Origin: Natrinema sp. HArc-T2
GTDB taxonomy: Archaea; Halobacteriota; Halobacteria; Halobacteriales; Natrialbaceae
Reading direction: 5' to 3'
Length of the DNA: 64,000 nucleotides
Assembly: GCF_041821085.1 (NCBI RefSeq)
Contig: NZ_JBGUAZ010000004.1
Coordinates: forward strand, 62,001 to 126,000
Of this stretch, positions 2,911-10,353 are shown piece by piece (position 1 is the stretch's first letter; each line of letters opens with the position of its first letter). Position numbers and translations under genes: made by a program. Below the pieces are notes generated by a model. It was not told where the DNA came from and ran no database searches. It saw nothing but the letters and a program-made list of their open reading frames with translations.

Positions 2911-4239
2911 TCAGTCGTCGTCGGTCGCGCCGATGCTCGCGTCGCTGTTTACCGTGGCTGTCATCGAAGGCGGTGCGATCGGTCCATCAGTCGCGCCGAA
3001 CTCCGGGTTAAAGAGCTGGAGTGCGGTGTGGATAGTACTCCAGTCGTCCTCTGCGGCTGCCTCGCGCAGGCTCTTGGTCGGCGGTGCGAGCAACTGGTTG
3101 ACCAGCGAGTCGGCCATCGCCTCGACGATCTCGCGTTGCTCTGCGGACACCTCGTCGCCTAACCGTGAGAGCGCCGTTTCGACCTCCTGTTCTTTGATCC
3201 GTTCGGCGGACTCGTACATCGCAGCGATGGCCTCGTCGGCGCGGGCGCGCTTGTACTGCTCGATGAGCAACTCGAACTCGTGGTCGATCATCGTCTCGAC
3301 CTCCTCGGCGGCGTCGGCTCGTTGATCGTGTGTCTCGGCGGTGATCGACTCGAGGTCGTCCAGATCGAACACCTGCACCGCAGGTAACGCGTCGGTCTCC
3401 GGCGCGACGTCGCGGGGCTGGCCGAGATCGACGATCACCTGTGAATCCTCCTTCCCCTCGAGATGGTGGGGTTCAACGACTGGCTCGTCGCTGCCGGTCG
3501 CCGCGACGACGACATCCGCGCGGGTTGCGACCCGCTCTAGGTCCTCGAGCGAGACGACCGTGGTGTCGGTTTCGTCGTCGACATCGCTGACGAGAGGGGT
3601 TGCGCGTGAGACGGTCCGGTTAGCGACGACGAGTTCGTCGATGCCAGCGGCCGTGAGACTCCGAGCGGCGAGCTGTCCCATCTCGCCAGCGCCGACGACC
3701 AGCGCAGTCGCCCCCTCGAGATCGATCTCGCGGGCGGCCCGTCGCGTCGCAGCCGAGCCAAGCGAGACGACGCCCTCGTTGATCGCGGTCTCGGTCCGGG
3801 CGCGTTCGCCGACGTGGATCGCCTTCGTGACGGCGGCCTCGAGCATCGAGCCGATCCCGCCGGCGTCGCGGGCGTCCTCGTAGGCGGTCCGAACCTGCCC
3901 GATAATCTGGTCTTCGCCGATGATTACCGACTCGAGGCCAGCGGCGACACGCAGGAGATGGCGTAAGCTCTCGTTGTGGTCGGTCGTGACGACGGCGTCG
4001 TCCTCGACGCCAGCGAAAAACTCAGAGAGAGCGGCTCGGCCGACGACGTGGTCCGGTCCGACGACGTATGCCTCGACGCGGTTACACGTCGACAGAACGT
4101 ACGCCTCTTCGATGTCGGGCACAGTCAACAACTCCGTCACAGCGGTCGTCTGACTCTCGGGGCTGGCAGCGGCGAGCTGGTCGACGGTCCCACACCGGTG
4201 TGTGACACGCGCTGCGGTGACGACGCCGGTCGAGATCAC
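2911..4239 (-). CDS. hemA: Glutamyl-tRNA reductase
   Basis: A 442-residue enzyme that reduces glutamyl-tRNA(Glu) to glutamate-1-semialdehyde with NADPH, the first committed step of tetrapyrrole synthesis. The nucleophilic Cys is Cys52 in VLSTCNRVEAYV. A glutamyl-tRNA reductase substrate segment (ESVIIGEDQIIGQV) follows, then a Rossmann motif VVGAGEMGQLAARSL and the C-terminal dimerisation helices. It has about 40 extra acidic residues at the C-terminus, common in haloarchaea. The start codon is GTG and shares GTGA with the stop of the precorrin-2 dehydrogenase gene upstream. It is the last gene of a three-gene minus-strand operon for early and siroheme-dependent heme synthesis. Confidence 0.95.
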   Translation of the reverse strand: MISTGVVTAARVTHRCGTVDQLAAASPESQTTAVTELLTVPDIEEAYVLSTCNRVEAYVVGPDHVVGRAALSEFFAGVEDDAVVTTDHNESLRHLLRVAAGLESVIIGEDQIIGQVRTAYEDARDAGGIGSMLEAAVTKAIHVGERARTETAINEGVVSLGSAATRRAAREIDLEGATALVVGAGEMGQLAARSLTAAGIDELVVANRTVSRATPLVSDVDDETDTTVVSLEDLERVATRADVVVAATGSDEPVVEPHHLEGKEDSQVIVDLGQPRDVAPETDALPAVQVFDLDDLESITAETHDQRADAAEEVETMIDHEFELLIEQYKRARADEAIAAMYESAERIKEQEVETALSRLGDEVSAEQREIVEAMADSLVNQLLAPPTKSLREAAAEDDWSTIHTALQLFNPEFGATDGPIAPPSMTATVNSDASIGATDDD

Positions 4240-4892
4240 GACCGATCACCCCCAGTAGACAGATTCTCGGCGAGCACGTCCTCGATCACTTGGGGACTGT
4301 TGGAAGTACCTGTACGTAAAGCTGTCCAAACATCTGGAGAATTAACGACGTCGGTGACGATCTGCTGCCGTCGGTCGACCGCCACGTCCCGGGATTTGAG
4401 TTCTTCGCGCACCTCCGCACAGACCTGCGCCATCTCGCCGGCTCCGGAAAGCGTTTCCTCGAGTTCCTGGCGGAGATACTTGCTCAGTGCGGGTGCTTGC
4501 CCGCCGGTCGCGACCGAGACGACGACGGGATCCTCGCGGACGGTCGCGGGAACGACGACGCTACCGGAGTCGCGCTCTCCCGACCGGTCCGCACGATTGA
4601 CGAGCGTGCCCCGTTCGCGGGCCGCGTCGGCGATGGCATCGTTGATCGTGTCGTCGTCCGTCGCGGCGACGACCAGTGCGGGAGTCGTCCGCTCGAGCCA
4701 ACCCGGAATCTCGTCCGGGTCGGGTGCGGCCCGCACGAGTTCGGCTCCGCCGAACTCCCGGTCGGCAAAGGTCGGACTGACGACGATCACGTGCGCTTCA
4801 CGGTCGAACCGCCGGGCTTTCCGTGCACCCACGTGGCCGCCGCCGAAGACGAGCACCGTCGTGTCGGTGAAGTCGTGTAAGAGTGGAATCAT
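4236..4892 (-). CDS. Precorrin-2 dehydrogenase / sirohydrochlorin ferrochelatase (Met8/CysG-N type)
   Basis: A 218-residue protein of the Met8/CysG N-terminal family, which oxidises precorrin-2 to sirohydrochlorin with NAD and may insert iron to give siroheme. The dinucleotide motif VLVFGGGHVGARKARRF is at residues 14-30. LVVAATDDDTINDAI and LVNRADR follow, and the family signature GGQAPALSKYLRQELE is near residue 140. The start at 4892 (MIPLLHDF) fits the family; longer readings add a basic, low-quality segment. It lies 26 bases after the siroheme decarboxylase gene and overlaps hemA by four bases, so siroheme and heme functions are co-transcribed. Whether it also chelates iron cannot be told from sequence. 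Confidence 0.9.
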   Translation of the reverse strand: MIPLLHDFTDTTVLVFGGGHVGARKARRFDREAHVIVVSPTFADREFGGAELVRAAPDPDEIPGWLERTTPALVVAATDDDTINDAIADAARERGTLVNRADRSGERDSGSVVVPATVREDPVVVSVATGGQAPALSKYLRQELEETLSGAGEMAQVCAEVREELKSRDVAVDRRQQIVTDVVNSPDVWTALRTGTSNSPQVIEDVLAENLSTGGDRS

Positions 4893-4918
4893 GGAGGAAA
4901 CGTTGCTACCGCAGGGCG

Positions 4919-6001
4919 TTACTGCGCTCTGGTGTTCGCGTCGGCGCGTTCGTCCAGTCGAATCCCGGTTTTCTTCAAGATCTGTGTCGAAAACAGGGAG
5001 TCCCAGTCGTCCTCGGAGACGTCCCAGTACTCGCTCATGGTCTCGCGGACCTGTTCGATACGCTGCTGGCTTTCGTCCTCGCTGCGGCCGTGGGTCATCG
5101 CGAAGAAGTTGTACGGCCAAACGCCCTCGTGACGCGGTCGCCGATAACAGTGCGTGACGAACGGCAGCGCAGCGACTTCGGGGCCGACCTCGGGGACGAC
5201 CTCGTCGGGGACGTTCCAGACCGTCATCCCGTTTTCCGTATAGCCCAGCGCGTAGTGGTTGGGCACGACGCCGATCCGGCGGATCTTGCCCTCACGCTCG
5301 AATCGTTTGATGGTCTCGAGCACCCAGTCGGCCTCCTGGCCGATCGCGTCAGCCACGTCCGCATACGGTGTTTCGGTCAGCGGGACGCCGCCTTGGATCT
5401 CGAGGACGAGGTCGCGTTCGGCTGGCGACAACGTCGCGTCGTCGGTCGGTTCGACGTCGGGGCCGCGCTCGGATAGGTCGATCCCGGCTGCCGCGATGTC
5501 CCCGTCGCCGTCGAGTGGGCCGTCGACGTAGAACTTGGCTTCGACGCGGAACTCGCGTTGTTTCGGCAGGTTGTACGTCTCCTGGCCCGTCTCAGCTTCG
5601 ATCTCGGCTAACACCTCCTCGACGCGGTCCTCGTCGGCGACGCTGACGACGAACCAGACGTTCAGGTGTGGATGCTCGCGCTCGTAGTTGTGAGCTACCT
5701 CGCGGTGGGCGTTGACGGCCTCGACGACCTCGTCGAAGTGGTCTTCGGGGGCGTGCATGGCGACCAGCGTCGCCGCGCCGCCGATCTCCTGGGCGTTGAC
5801 GAGCGGGCCGAACCGCGAGAGGACGCCGCGATCATCCAAGTCACGAATCGTCTCGAGCAGCCCCGCCGCGTCGATGTCGATCCCGTTCTCGCGCATGGCA
5901 GCCGCAGCAGGCTCGAACGGTCGTTCCACGACAGGAAAGCCGCCCTGAAAGGCGTTGACGACCGCCCGTTCGCGCTCCGTGAGATCGACGTCCGTGGTCA
6001 T
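4919..6001 (-). CDS. ahbB: Siroheme decarboxylase, fused AhbA-AhbB type
   Basis: A 360-residue protein made of two Lrp/AsnC-like halves, each with an N-terminal winged helix and a ferredoxin-like domain. The first half is about residues 8-150 (LTERERAVVNAFQGGFPVVERPF...). The second is about 185-340 (LSPAERDLVLEIQGGVPLTETPY...). The segment TENGMTVWNVPDE...PFVTHCYRRPRHEGVWPYNFFAMTHG matches AhbB proteins, which decarboxylate siroheme to 12,18-didecarboxysiroheme in the alternative heme pathway. In many organisms AhbA and AhbB are separate; here they form one chain. Despite the HTH folds it is an enzyme, not a regulator. It is the first gene of the operon with met8-like and hemA, which supports the assignment strongly. 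A TATA element lies 24-30 bases before the ATG. Confidence 0.9.
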   Translation of the reverse strand: MTTDVDLTERERAVVNAFQGGFPVVERPFEPAAAAMRENGIDIDAAGLLETIRDLDDRGVLSRFGPLVNAQEIGGAATLVAMHAPEDHFDEVVEAVNAHREVAHNYEREHPHLNVWFVVSVADEDRVEEVLAEIEAETGQETYNLPKQREFRVEAKFYVDGPLDGDGDIAAAGIDLSERGPDVEPTDDATLSPAERDLVLEIQGGVPLTETPYADVADAIGQEADWVLETIKRFEREGKIRRIGVVPNHYALGYTENGMTVWNVPDEVVPEVGPEVAALPFVTHCYRRPRHEGVWPYNFFAMTHGRSEDESQQRIEQVRETMSEYWDVSEDDWDSLFSTQILKKTGIRLDERADANTRAQ

Positions 6002-7151: not shown

Positions 7152-7329
7152 TAGCTCACTCGAGCAGCGCCGGACTGATAGCCGTCACGGTTCCGATGGC
7201 AGTAAGAGCCGTTATTCGACGGGCGTTTTTCTGCCCCTCGACGCTCGAATCCGAGGGCGAATCGTGTCTGCTGGATTGACAACGAGCAACACACAAGACA
7301 CATAGGCACCGGTGACTTTTCCACGGATA

Positions 7330-8262
7330 ATGAAGCGGTGGCTCCGCGGACGCGTCGATGCGGCCTACGAACGGCTGCTTTCACGTGAGATATCCGGCGC
7401 GCCAACCCACGTTGCGGTGATCCAAGACGGCAATCGACGGTATGCCCGAAAGCGAGGCGGCGACGCCCACGAGGGCCACCGCGCCGGTGCGAAGACGACC
7501 GAACGCGTCCTCGAGTGGTGTCAGGATATCGGCGTCGAGGAGTTGACGCTGTATGCGTTCTCGACGGAGAACTTCGAGCGCCCGCCCGACGAGCGAGAGG
7601 CGTTGTTCGACCTCCTCGAATCGAAACTCCGCGAGTTCGCCGACGCCGACCGCGTCCACGACAACGACGTCCACATCCGCGCCCTCGGCGATGTCGACCG
7701 GCTCCCCAAGCGGGTTCGTGAGGCCGTCGCCTACGCCGAGGACCGAACCAACGACTACGACGAGTTCGTCCTCAACATCGCGCTGGCCTACGGCGGTCGT
7801 GCAGAGCTCCTCGAGGCCGTCCGCGGCGTCGCCGAAGCCGTCGATGCGGGCGAACTCTCGCCCGACGAGATCGACGTCGGGGACATCGAACAGCGACTCT
7901 ACGACCGCCCGGTGCGTGACGTCGACCTGATCATCCGAACCGGCGGCGACGAGCGCACGTCGAATTTTCTCCCCTGGCACGCCAACGGCAACGAGGCCGC
8001 GGTTTTCTTCTGTACGCCCTACTGGCCGGAGTTCTCGAAGACGGACTTCCTTCGGGGGATCCGAACCTATGAACACCGCCAGGAGTCCTGGCGGCGCACT
8101 CGTGCCCGGCGTGCGCTGGCCTTACTCGGGGCCGTCAGCGAACCAGAACTCGCCGAAGCGCGCGCGATCGTCGACCGGTTCCGCGACTCGCTGCCCTCGA
8201 GCGAACGGCCCGACGCCGGCGAGTTCGAGACTGGCGACTCGAGCAGCCAGATCGCAGACTAG
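7330..8262 (+). CDS. uppS: cis-Prenyltransferase, catalytic subunit (undecaprenyl diphosphate synthase family)
   Basis: A 310-residue cis-prenyltransferase that elongates an allylic diphosphate with isopentenyl diphosphate to make the long polyprenyl carrier (dolichol-type) used in protein glycosylation. Family motifs are intact: VAVIQDGNRRYARKRG with catalytic Asp33, FSTENF, and IRTGGDERTSNFLPWHANGNEAAVFFCTPYWPEF. After DFLRGIRTYEHRQ, however, where bacterial enzymes have RRFG (the RxG motif that reaches the partner's active site), this protein has ESWRRTR and then a long C-terminal extension. It faces a convergent second family member one base away that keeps RxG. I infer a heteromeric enzyme. 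ATG 7330 was chosen over an upstream start because it begins the conserved N-terminal helix. Confidence 0.9.
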   Translation: MKRWLRGRVDAAYERLLSREISGAPTHVAVIQDGNRRYARKRGGDAHEGHRAGAKTTERVLEWCQDIGVEELTLYAFSTENFERPPDEREALFDLLESKLREFADADRVHDNDVHIRALGDVDRLPKRVREAVAYAEDRTNDYDEFVLNIALAYGGRAELLEAVRGVAEAVDAGELSPDEIDVGDIEQRLYDRPVRDVDLIIRTGGDERTSNFLPWHANGNEAAVFFCTPYWPEFSKTDFLRGIRTYEHRQESWRRTRARRALALLGAVSEPELAEARAIVDRFRDSLPSSERPDAGEFETGDSSSQIAD

Positions 8263-8263
8263 A

Positions 8264-8869
8264 TCAGCGGCCGAACCGCCGCGACCGATTACAGTACTCG
8301 CGCACTGCCCGCAGGAAGTCCCGTTTGCGAAAGTCCCGCCAGTTGACGTCGGTAAAGTACAGCTCCGAATAGACCGACTGCCAGATCATAAAATCCGAGA
8401 GGCGCTCTGCGCCGGTTTTGATCACCAGATCCGGCTCGGAGGGAAAGACGAGATGGTCTTCGACATCCTCGTCATCGATCTCGTCGGGCTCGAGGCTGCC
8501 TGCGTCGACGCGCTCGGCGAGGGTTCGGACGGCGCTGGTGAACTCGTGTTTTCCGCCGAGGCCGATCCCGATCCGGATCGGCGCATCGGCGCGTGCCTTG
8601 TCGTCGGGTCCGCGGACGGCGACGGGCCGCGGTGCGTCGATCCGCTCGAGTTCACGTTGCAAAGCCGGCACCGCCGCCGCGTCGAGGACGCTGACGTAGA
8701 CGGTCACCTGCGAGGCGTATTCGACGGCCCACTCGAAGAAATCGGTGAGCGTCTCGTAGGCACCTCGCTCTAACAGATCGCGCTCGGTGATCACGAGCGC
8801 GATGTGATCCGGCGGGTCGCCGTCGTGGCGGCGGATTCGAAAGGCCAGATACCGTTCGTACAGTCCCAC
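8264..8869 (-). CDS. cis-Prenyltransferase homologue, non-catalytic NgBR-like subunit
   Basis: A 201-residue protein of the cis-prenyltransferase family lacking catalytic residues. In place of the DGNRR loop it has HIALVITERD (residues 22-31), and the FSTENF motif is absent. The later region is recognisable (IRIGIGLGG, EPDLVIKTGAERLSDFMIWQSVYSELYFTDVNWRDF), with Ser-Asp-Phe in place of the substrate-binding Arg-Thr-Ser-Asn. The C-terminus NRSRRFGR keeps the RxG motif (Arg198-Phe-Gly200) that the neighbouring catalytic protein lacks. This matches the division of labour between eukaryotic NgBR and DHDDS. It starts with GTG. Convergence with uppS, with stop codons one base apart, argues against co-transcription but supports conserved neighbourhood. 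Confidence 0.8.
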   Translation of the reverse strand: MGLYERYLAFRIRRHDGDPPDHIALVITERDLLERGAYETLTDFFEWAVEYASQVTVYVSVLDAAAVPALQRELERIDAPRPVAVRGPDDKARADAPIRIGIGLGGKHEFTSAVRTLAERVDAGSLEPDEIDDEDVEDHLVFPSEPDLVIKTGAERLSDFMIWQSVYSELYFTDVNWRDFRKRDFLRAVREYCNRSRRFGR

Positions 8870-9027: not shown

Positions 9028-10353
9028 GTGACGGCACCCGTTCGGCAAGCTGGCGTGTTCGCAGCCCTCTGTACGCTGTCGCTTGTCGTTCCGCTCGCTA
9101 GCCCGCGCGTCGGAGCTGCGATCGCCGGCGCCGTCCTGTTGGGTGCCTACGTTATCACCGACGGCCCGCTGTTCGACCTACTTGCCTACCCGGGCGATTA
9201 CGAGGATTCGCGGCTCTACGGACTCATCACGTTCGTCCTCGCGGCAGTCGCGCTCGGACTCATGGCGACCGCCGCATCGATGCCGGTCGCCATCTTCGTC
9301 GGAACGATCCTGCTCGTCGGCTACGGCAACCTCGGCGAGCAACTCATCAGGCTGCGAACCGACAGCCCCGTCGTCCGCGTCGTCGGCTTCTGTCTGACGG
9401 CAGCCGCCGCAGCCGTCGCCGGCCAGGCCATCACTCGCTCGCTGGCGGGCGAGGCCGTCGTCTCGGCGCTGCCGCTCATGGTCTTTCTGGCGGCCAGCGG
9501 TGCGTTTCTCGCCGCGCTGTTGCGTGACGTTCTGTTGCGCTCCGACGACCCCATCGTCGTCCTCTCGGTCGGGCTCTTGCTGTGGCTGCTTGCGGAACTC
9601 GAGCCGACCATCGGCCCGACGGAACTCCTCATCGCGCTTGCAGTCACCGTCGTACTCGGCTATACGTCCTATGCCCTCGAGACCGCTTCCATTGCGGGGA
9701 TGCTCACCGGCGTCTTGCTCGTCTTGCTGACGACCGTCCTCGGCGGCTACGGCTGGTTTGCCGTCCTCGTCTCCTTTTTCGCCATCGGCGGCCTCTCGAC
9801 GAAGTTCCGCTACGAGGAAAAGACGGAACTCGGCGTCGCCGAGGACAACAACGGCGCCCGTGGAAGCGGCAACGTCCTCGGCAACGCCGCGGTCGCACTC
9901 GTCGCCGTCCTCGGCTATGCCGCCAGCGACGCCGGCTTGCTCCCCCACGAACCCGAGCTCTTCTTATTCGCCTTTACCGGCTCGATCGCCACCGCGATGA
10001 GCGACACTCTCTCGAGCGAGATCGGGAGCGTCTTCGACCGACCGCGACTGATCACGACCCTCCAGCCGGTCGCTCCCGGCACTGACGGCGGCGTCACCTG
10101 GCAGGGTGAACTCGCCGGTATCGCCGGCGCAGCCATCGTCGCCGCCATCGCTACCGGGCTGTTCCCCGAAGTGGGTGCCGCCGGCGCGGCGATCATCCTT
10201 GCCGCAGGGATCGCCGGAATGACCGTCGATAGCCTGCTCGGCGCGACGCTCGAGGGATCGGTACTCGGCAATCAGGGCGTGAATTTCCTCGCGACGCTGT
10301 CGGGTGCGCTCGTCAGTGCCCTGCTGGTGTTGACCGGTGCCGTCTTCGGCTGA
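9028..10353 (+). CDS. DUF92-family polytopic membrane protein
   Basis: A 441-residue membrane protein with about 12 hydrophobic segments spread along its length. The C-terminal half matches DUF92/TIGR00297 proteins: FRYEEKTELGVAEDNNGARGSGNVLGNA, a long hydrophobic run, FAFTGSIATAMSDTLSSEIGSVF and VTWQGELAGIAGA. Known relatives include the chloroplast phytyl-phosphate kinase VTE6, so a role in prenyl or phytyl phosphate metabolism is plausible. The N-terminal half (about residues 1-215) is extra relative to short DUF92 proteins and is itself membrane-spanning. Neighbouring cis-prenyltransferase genes fit a polyprenol or isoprenoid theme, but that is inference. The start codon is GTG at 9028. 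Confidence 0.78.
   Translation: MTAPVRQAGVFAALCTLSLVVPLASPRVGAAIAGAVLLGAYVITDGPLFDLLAYPGDYEDSRLYGLITFVLAAVALGLMATAASMPVAIFVGTILLVGYGNLGEQLIRLRTDSPVVRVVGFCLTAAAAAVAGQAITRSLAGEAVVSALPLMVFLAASGAFLAALLRDVLLRSDDPIVVLSVGLLLWLLAELEPTIGPTELLIALAVTVVLGYTSYALETASIAGMLTGVLLVLLTTVLGGYGWFAVLVSFFAIGGLSTKFRYEEKTELGVAEDNNGARGSGNVLGNAAVALVAVLGYAASDAGLLPHEPELFLFAFTGSIATAMSDTLSSEIGSVFDRPRLITTLQPVAPGTDGGVTWQGELAGIAGAAIVAAIATGLFPEVGAAGAAIILAAGIAGMTVDSLLGATLEGSVLGNQGVNFLATLSGALVSALLVLTGAVFG

Follow-up and report, generated by a model that had tools for sequence, protein, structure and literature searches.

Convergent genes of a Natrinema strain probably encode the catalytic and accessory subunits of a heteromeric archaeal cis-prenyltransferase

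The window, a stretch of 64,000 nucleotides from Natrinema sp. HArc-T2, contains two convergent genes, here called L and S, that very probably encode the catalytic and the accessory subunit of one heteromeric cis-prenyltransferase, which presumably makes the precursor of the dolichyl carrier. Both open reading frames were confirmed. L lies on the forward strand (7330..8262, 310 aa) and S on the reverse strand (8264..8869, 201 aa, GTG start), and a single base (8263) separates their stop codons. L begins with ATG at 7330, and an alternative GTG is located at 7312. An archaeal heteromeric cis-prenyltransferase has already been published, so the idea of a heteromer is not new; the L/S pair represents this known enzyme in haloarchaea and is no new system. 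Our additions are the near-absolute character of the split, its presence across the whole phylum and its independence of gene order, and a root possibly shared with the eukaryotic enzyme. A two-subunit cis-prenyltransferase is indicated as the standard enzyme of a whole archaeal phylum, haloarchaea included.

The L protein is DHDDS-like and matches PF01255 with 234.6 bits (E 1e-69, Pfam cut-off 27). It contains the motif DGNRR for diphosphate and Mg binding (D33-R37, 7426..7440), the catalytic motif FSTENF (F77-F82, 7558..7575) and the IPP-binding motif RTGGDERTSNF (R203-F213, 7936..7968), all on the forward strand, and its DGNRR(Y/F) form is that of human DHDDS. At the place where homodimeric enzymes have the Arg-x-Gly (RxG) motif, L has ESWRRTR (8083..8103, forward strand), with QESWRRTR aligned opposite RERRFG of E. 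coli UppS, and a C-terminal helical extension follows (about residues 237-287 in the predicted model). The top fold match of this model (pLDDT 80) was human DHDDS, with a large rmsd; the two aligned over 299 columns, whereas bacterial enzymes aligned over about 230. In the profile comparison, DHDDS was also the best solved relative by sequence, with 219 bits narrowly above the 217 bits of E. coli UppS, and its alignment entered the C-terminal extension, to profile position 295. We do not claim that the extension corresponds to the DHDDS tetramerisation domain, since its length varies between 0 and 70 residues and many L proteins from outside the haloarchaea have little or none of it.

S is the putative non-catalytic, RxG-supplying and NgBR-like subunit. 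The protein starts directly with the cis-prenyltransferase core, with a charged or amphipathic stretch in the first 20 positions; judged from the sequence by eye, the N-terminal membrane anchor of NgBR-type accessory subunits appears to be absent. HVAIIMDGN is replaced by HIALVITERD, in which TERD (T28-D31, 8777..8788, reverse strand) is what remains, in degenerate form, of the DGN site. The catalytic segment of about 11 residues after TERD is deleted, and the DGN and FSxEN sites are both gone. The C-terminal end reads RRFGR, with the RxG motif (R198-F199-G200, 8270..8278, reverse strand) one residue before the stop. S matches PF01255 with 93 bits (E 3e-26, cut-off 27), and the HMMER match covers only its C-terminal half. 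For S, an AlphaFold model (55-sequence alignment, pLDDT 85) gave cis-prenyltransferases throughout as fold matches, and an NgBR chain was not among the best 50. The sequence-only reading had described L as having the full catalytic set without RxG, and S as lacking DGNRR but ending in RRFGR; the open reading frames, Pfam and the alignment across the phylum confirm this.

For that alignment, 102 distinct L and 138 distinct S proteins of the phylum were compared with E. coli UppS (sequence from PDB alignments), which served as numbering reference. D26, N28, R30, F70, S71, E73, N74 and R77 were retained in 99-101 of the 102 L proteins (the catalytic Asp26 in 99). Among the 138 S proteins, the same positions were retained in 19 (D26), 2 (N28), 0 (R30), 0 (F70), 4 (S71), 13 (E73), 1 (N74) and 2 (R77). 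R242 of the RxG motif occurred in 136/138 S versus 2/102 L and G244 in 138/138 S versus 3/102 L, and in every S protein (138/138) exactly one residue follows the RxG glycine. The IPP-site residues Trp207 and Glu213 were likewise kept in all 138 S. The split of motifs between L and S is therefore near-absolute across the phylum and beyond chance. No L among the 102 carries a substitute RxG at this position, in line with the absence of RxG noted for window L from its sequence. Relocation of the motif elsewhere in L was considered and rejected, as only a chance RLG was found, far downstream, in two L proteins. Each of the six bacterial UppS controls unites the catalytic motifs with RxG in a single chain; in human DHDDS and NgBR the motifs are divided as in L and S.

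Experimental precedent comes from Methanosarcina mazei, in which MM_0618 and MM_1083 are reported to form a heteromeric cis-prenyltransferase with C45-50 products (Emi et al. 2019, cited in PMC8131916) that is likely responsible for the carrier lipid (PMC8131916). MM_0014 of the same organism lacks RxG, is active without a partner and has been crystallised (PMC8131916). Genome G310 encodes a protein that is 100% identical to the MM_0014 PDB chain over 211 residues, and exactly two further cis-prenyltransferases, which by elimination would be MM_0618 and MM_1083. In a tree that sampled haloarchaea along with many further families of the phylum, all L proteins formed a single clade and so did all S proteins (100/100 for either), and each clade contains one of the two M. 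mazei proteins (100/100). A larger quick tree agrees with both clades (L support 87). The best matches among the M. mazei proteins have 45.5% identity over 268 aa for window L and 38.6% over 215 aa for window S. This apparent orthology of both subunits to a pair reported as heteromeric supports the DHDDS/NgBR-type heteromer that had been proposed for the window. L itself as an RxG-less enzyme of the MM_0014 type was ruled out by the tree and by the C-terminus.

In the proposed mechanism, L would bind the allylic diphosphate through DGNRR together with Mg2+ and IPP and would build the cis-polyprenyl chain. S would keep the cis-prenyltransferase fold without activity and reach over the dimer interface with its C-terminal tail, placing its Arg-x-Gly so as to complete the IPP/Mg2+ site of L. 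NgBR plays this part for DHDDS: in the human enzyme its RxG-bearing tail extends into the active site of DHDDS (PMC7573591). That L condenses and S donates RxG is suggested by orthology and motif logic, and we infer for the haloarchaeon the contact between L and S, the dependence of L on S, the chain length and the downstream use of the product.

It seems improbable that L is instead a self-sufficient homodimer freed of RxG, with S as a separate regulatory or scaffolding protein. By motif the catalytic chain of L is complete, MM_0014 is active without RxG and DHDDS alone has weak activity (PMC8131916, PMC7573591), so absence of RxG does not prove that a partner is needed. By orthology the heteromer is the probable form, but the word obligate, used in the sequence-only reading, goes too far, because RxG-less enzymes such as MM_0014 and, weakly, DHDDS act alone. 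The motif cannot be all that matters, since yeast Nus1 does without the canonical RxG (PMC7573591). A self-sufficient L nevertheless leaves unexplained why S retains exactly the RxG that L has lost, together with Trp207 and Glu213, each in 138/138 proteins, and why both proteins are orthologous to a pair reported as heteromeric. Still less probable is it that L and S are two independent enzymes with different products, each forming its own dimer. MM_0014, as a third M. mazei paralogue with different products, illustrates that paralogues can diverge (PMC8131916), but S lacks the catalytic Asp in 119/138 proteins, Arg30 in 138/138 and the FSxEN segment, and the deletion through its DGN-GH region makes catalysis by S alone implausible.

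Distribution of the two genes is in line with a catalytic and an accessory subunit. In a sample of 145 haloarchaeal genomes from 58 genera, S was present in 145/145 and L in 144/145, the exception (G072) being a draft in about 120 contigs. The earlier reading had staked its case on the small protein being conserved with L across haloarchaea, and it is. L and S were linked (within 10 kb) in 113 of these genomes, convergently in 113/113, and both were present but unlinked in another 31, which rules out adjacency as the reason for the pairing. The suggestion that two adjacent genes had undergone reciprocal loss was consequently dropped in favour of an ancient duplication, apparently older than the phylum, whose outcome persists where the genes are unlinked. 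Across the phylum, PF01255 proteins occurred in 195/197 genomes, nearly always two per genome; the S profile also matched in 195/197, but as it detects L weakly, the 197-genome tallies by themselves do not separate L from S outside haloarchaea. Taken together, both subunits seem to be encoded in nearly all Halobacteriota. A single scan of genome contigs yielded 80 loci, all from Halobacteriota as far as named, and the convergent order was also found in Methanoperedens and Methanomicrobiales. That S is a functionless, decaying duplicate is hardly conceivable: its catalytic motifs are lost and the HMMER match is confined to the C-terminal half, but it is present in every haloarchaeal genome of the sample and across the phylum, its mean column identity among 11 haloarchaea is 79% with a near-invariant C-terminal end, and just one in-frame TAG occurred among the matches listed.

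This TAG was found in a Methanosarcinaceae genome (G287, L262:465-1112, reverse strand) at codon 82 of the S gene, followed by an intact RRFGK end; it could encode pyrrolysine or have arisen by mutation. Several other genomes deviate from the common pattern. Two assemblies of one genus (G151 and G159, family code f17) contain no PF01255 protein, neither L nor S, in keeping with the co-occurrence of the two genes; both are in many contigs and about 91% complete. A few haloarchaea (L117, L120, L122, L152) have a second paralogue of the L type that is not linked to S, and the three that were checked all lack RxG. In one genus (code g20; L128, L141, L142), S has a mid insertion of variable length near residue 80-95 that splits BLAST matches. 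Lastly, the haloarchaeon G002 encodes a third, very divergent cis-prenyltransferase-like protein (L116:611-1315, reverse strand) with IPDGHRRYA and SEENLRR and without RxG.

The polyprenyl diphosphate formed by L and S would become the dolichyl carrier of N-glycosylation. The genome of the strain encodes only two PF01255 proteins, L and S, and no third cis-prenyltransferase; as the sole cis-prenyltransferase of the cell, the pair would have to make this carrier. An AglB-type archaeal oligosaccharyltransferase is also encoded (880 bits), which fits a dolichyl carrier for N-glycosylation. From these two observations we infer the function that had been proposed for the window. In Haloferax, HVO_2318 is UppS (PMC5898192) and is listed among the N-glycosylation pathway proteins (PMC9263693). 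The label 'UppS' for both haloarchaeal genes is misleading, as one of them is probably no enzyme by itself.

A gene for a DUF92 (PF01940) membrane protein (9028..10353, forward strand) is the divergent neighbour of S. DUF92 lies divergently upstream of S at nearly all haloarchaeal loci examined, and it has the same place in most Archaeoglobi and about half of the Methanomicrobia (loci L167-L246). A link between DUF92 and uppS has been reported and a kinase-like step in isoprenoid metabolism suggested (PMC5898192); the tie observed here is to the S subunit. The protein is possibly an isoprenoid kinase-like enzyme outside the heteromer. Siroheme-type genes are located upstream of the locus (4236-6001, reverse strand), with a NAD-binding siroheme synthase domain and an AsnC/NirDL-like protein.

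A deeper tree combined L and S with human DHDDS, human NgBR (sequence confirmed identical to PDB chain 6w2l_B) and six bacterial UppS. In this tree DHDDS joined L (95/81) and NgBR joined S (95/89). After removal of the catalytic and RxG columns, support for NgBR with S was 100/99 and that for the DHDDS-L branch dropped to 81/39. The S-NgBR profile match was near full-length (E 2e-11). In the alignment, the deletion after the former DGN site, through the DGN-GH segment, is common to S and NgBR, and NgBR and window S also have the LVITE stretch in common. The AU test did not reject DHDDS and NgBR as one clade (p 0.149), nor NgBR together with L and DHDDS (p 0.102), and the NgBR branch is very long. 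The grouping of DHDDS with L and NgBR with S is therefore suggestive, and long-branch attraction may contribute to it. Whether one split took place in archaea before Halobacteriota diversified, from which eukaryotes inherited DHDDS on the L side and NgBR on the S side, is in our judgement nearly balanced, leaning slightly towards doubt. If the split is common to eukaryotes, the human DHDDS/NgBR complex could be studied in haloarchaea as a simple model, and the dolichol machinery of eukaryotes would have one more archaeal root. Haloarchaea have easy genetics and their N-glycosylation is well studied. In the open literature searched, no previous study of a haloarchaeal heteromer or of Asgard cis-prenyltransferases was found.

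A similar enzyme is known from Archaeoglobus fulgidus. With MM_0618/MM_1083 of M. mazei, which belongs to the same phylum, the pair shares apparently orthologous subunits, the same division of catalytic motifs and RxG, and a presumed role in making the carrier lipid. The L- and S-type genes of M. mazei are unlinked, whereas those in the window are tail-to-tail neighbours, and M. mazei has MM_0014, which is absent from the genome of the window. Enzymes of the MM_0014/MA1831 type (7caq, 7vq9) resemble L in being archaeal PF01255 proteins without RxG; unlike L they are homomeric, end in TLGG and form a separate clade. The bacterial homodimeric UppS (E. coli, 1jp3) has the common fold, with catalytic residues as in L and RxG as in S, but combines both motifs in a single chain, whereas here they are divided between two genes. 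Closest in organisation outside the archaea is the human DHDDS/NgBR enzyme (PDB 6w2l, 6z1n). DHDDS and L both have the DGNRRYA motif and no RxG, and NgBR (NUS1) and S both lack a catalytic site and have RxG one residue from the C-terminus. The products differ, being C45-50 in M. mazei (PMC8131916) and C85-100 in human (PMC7573591).
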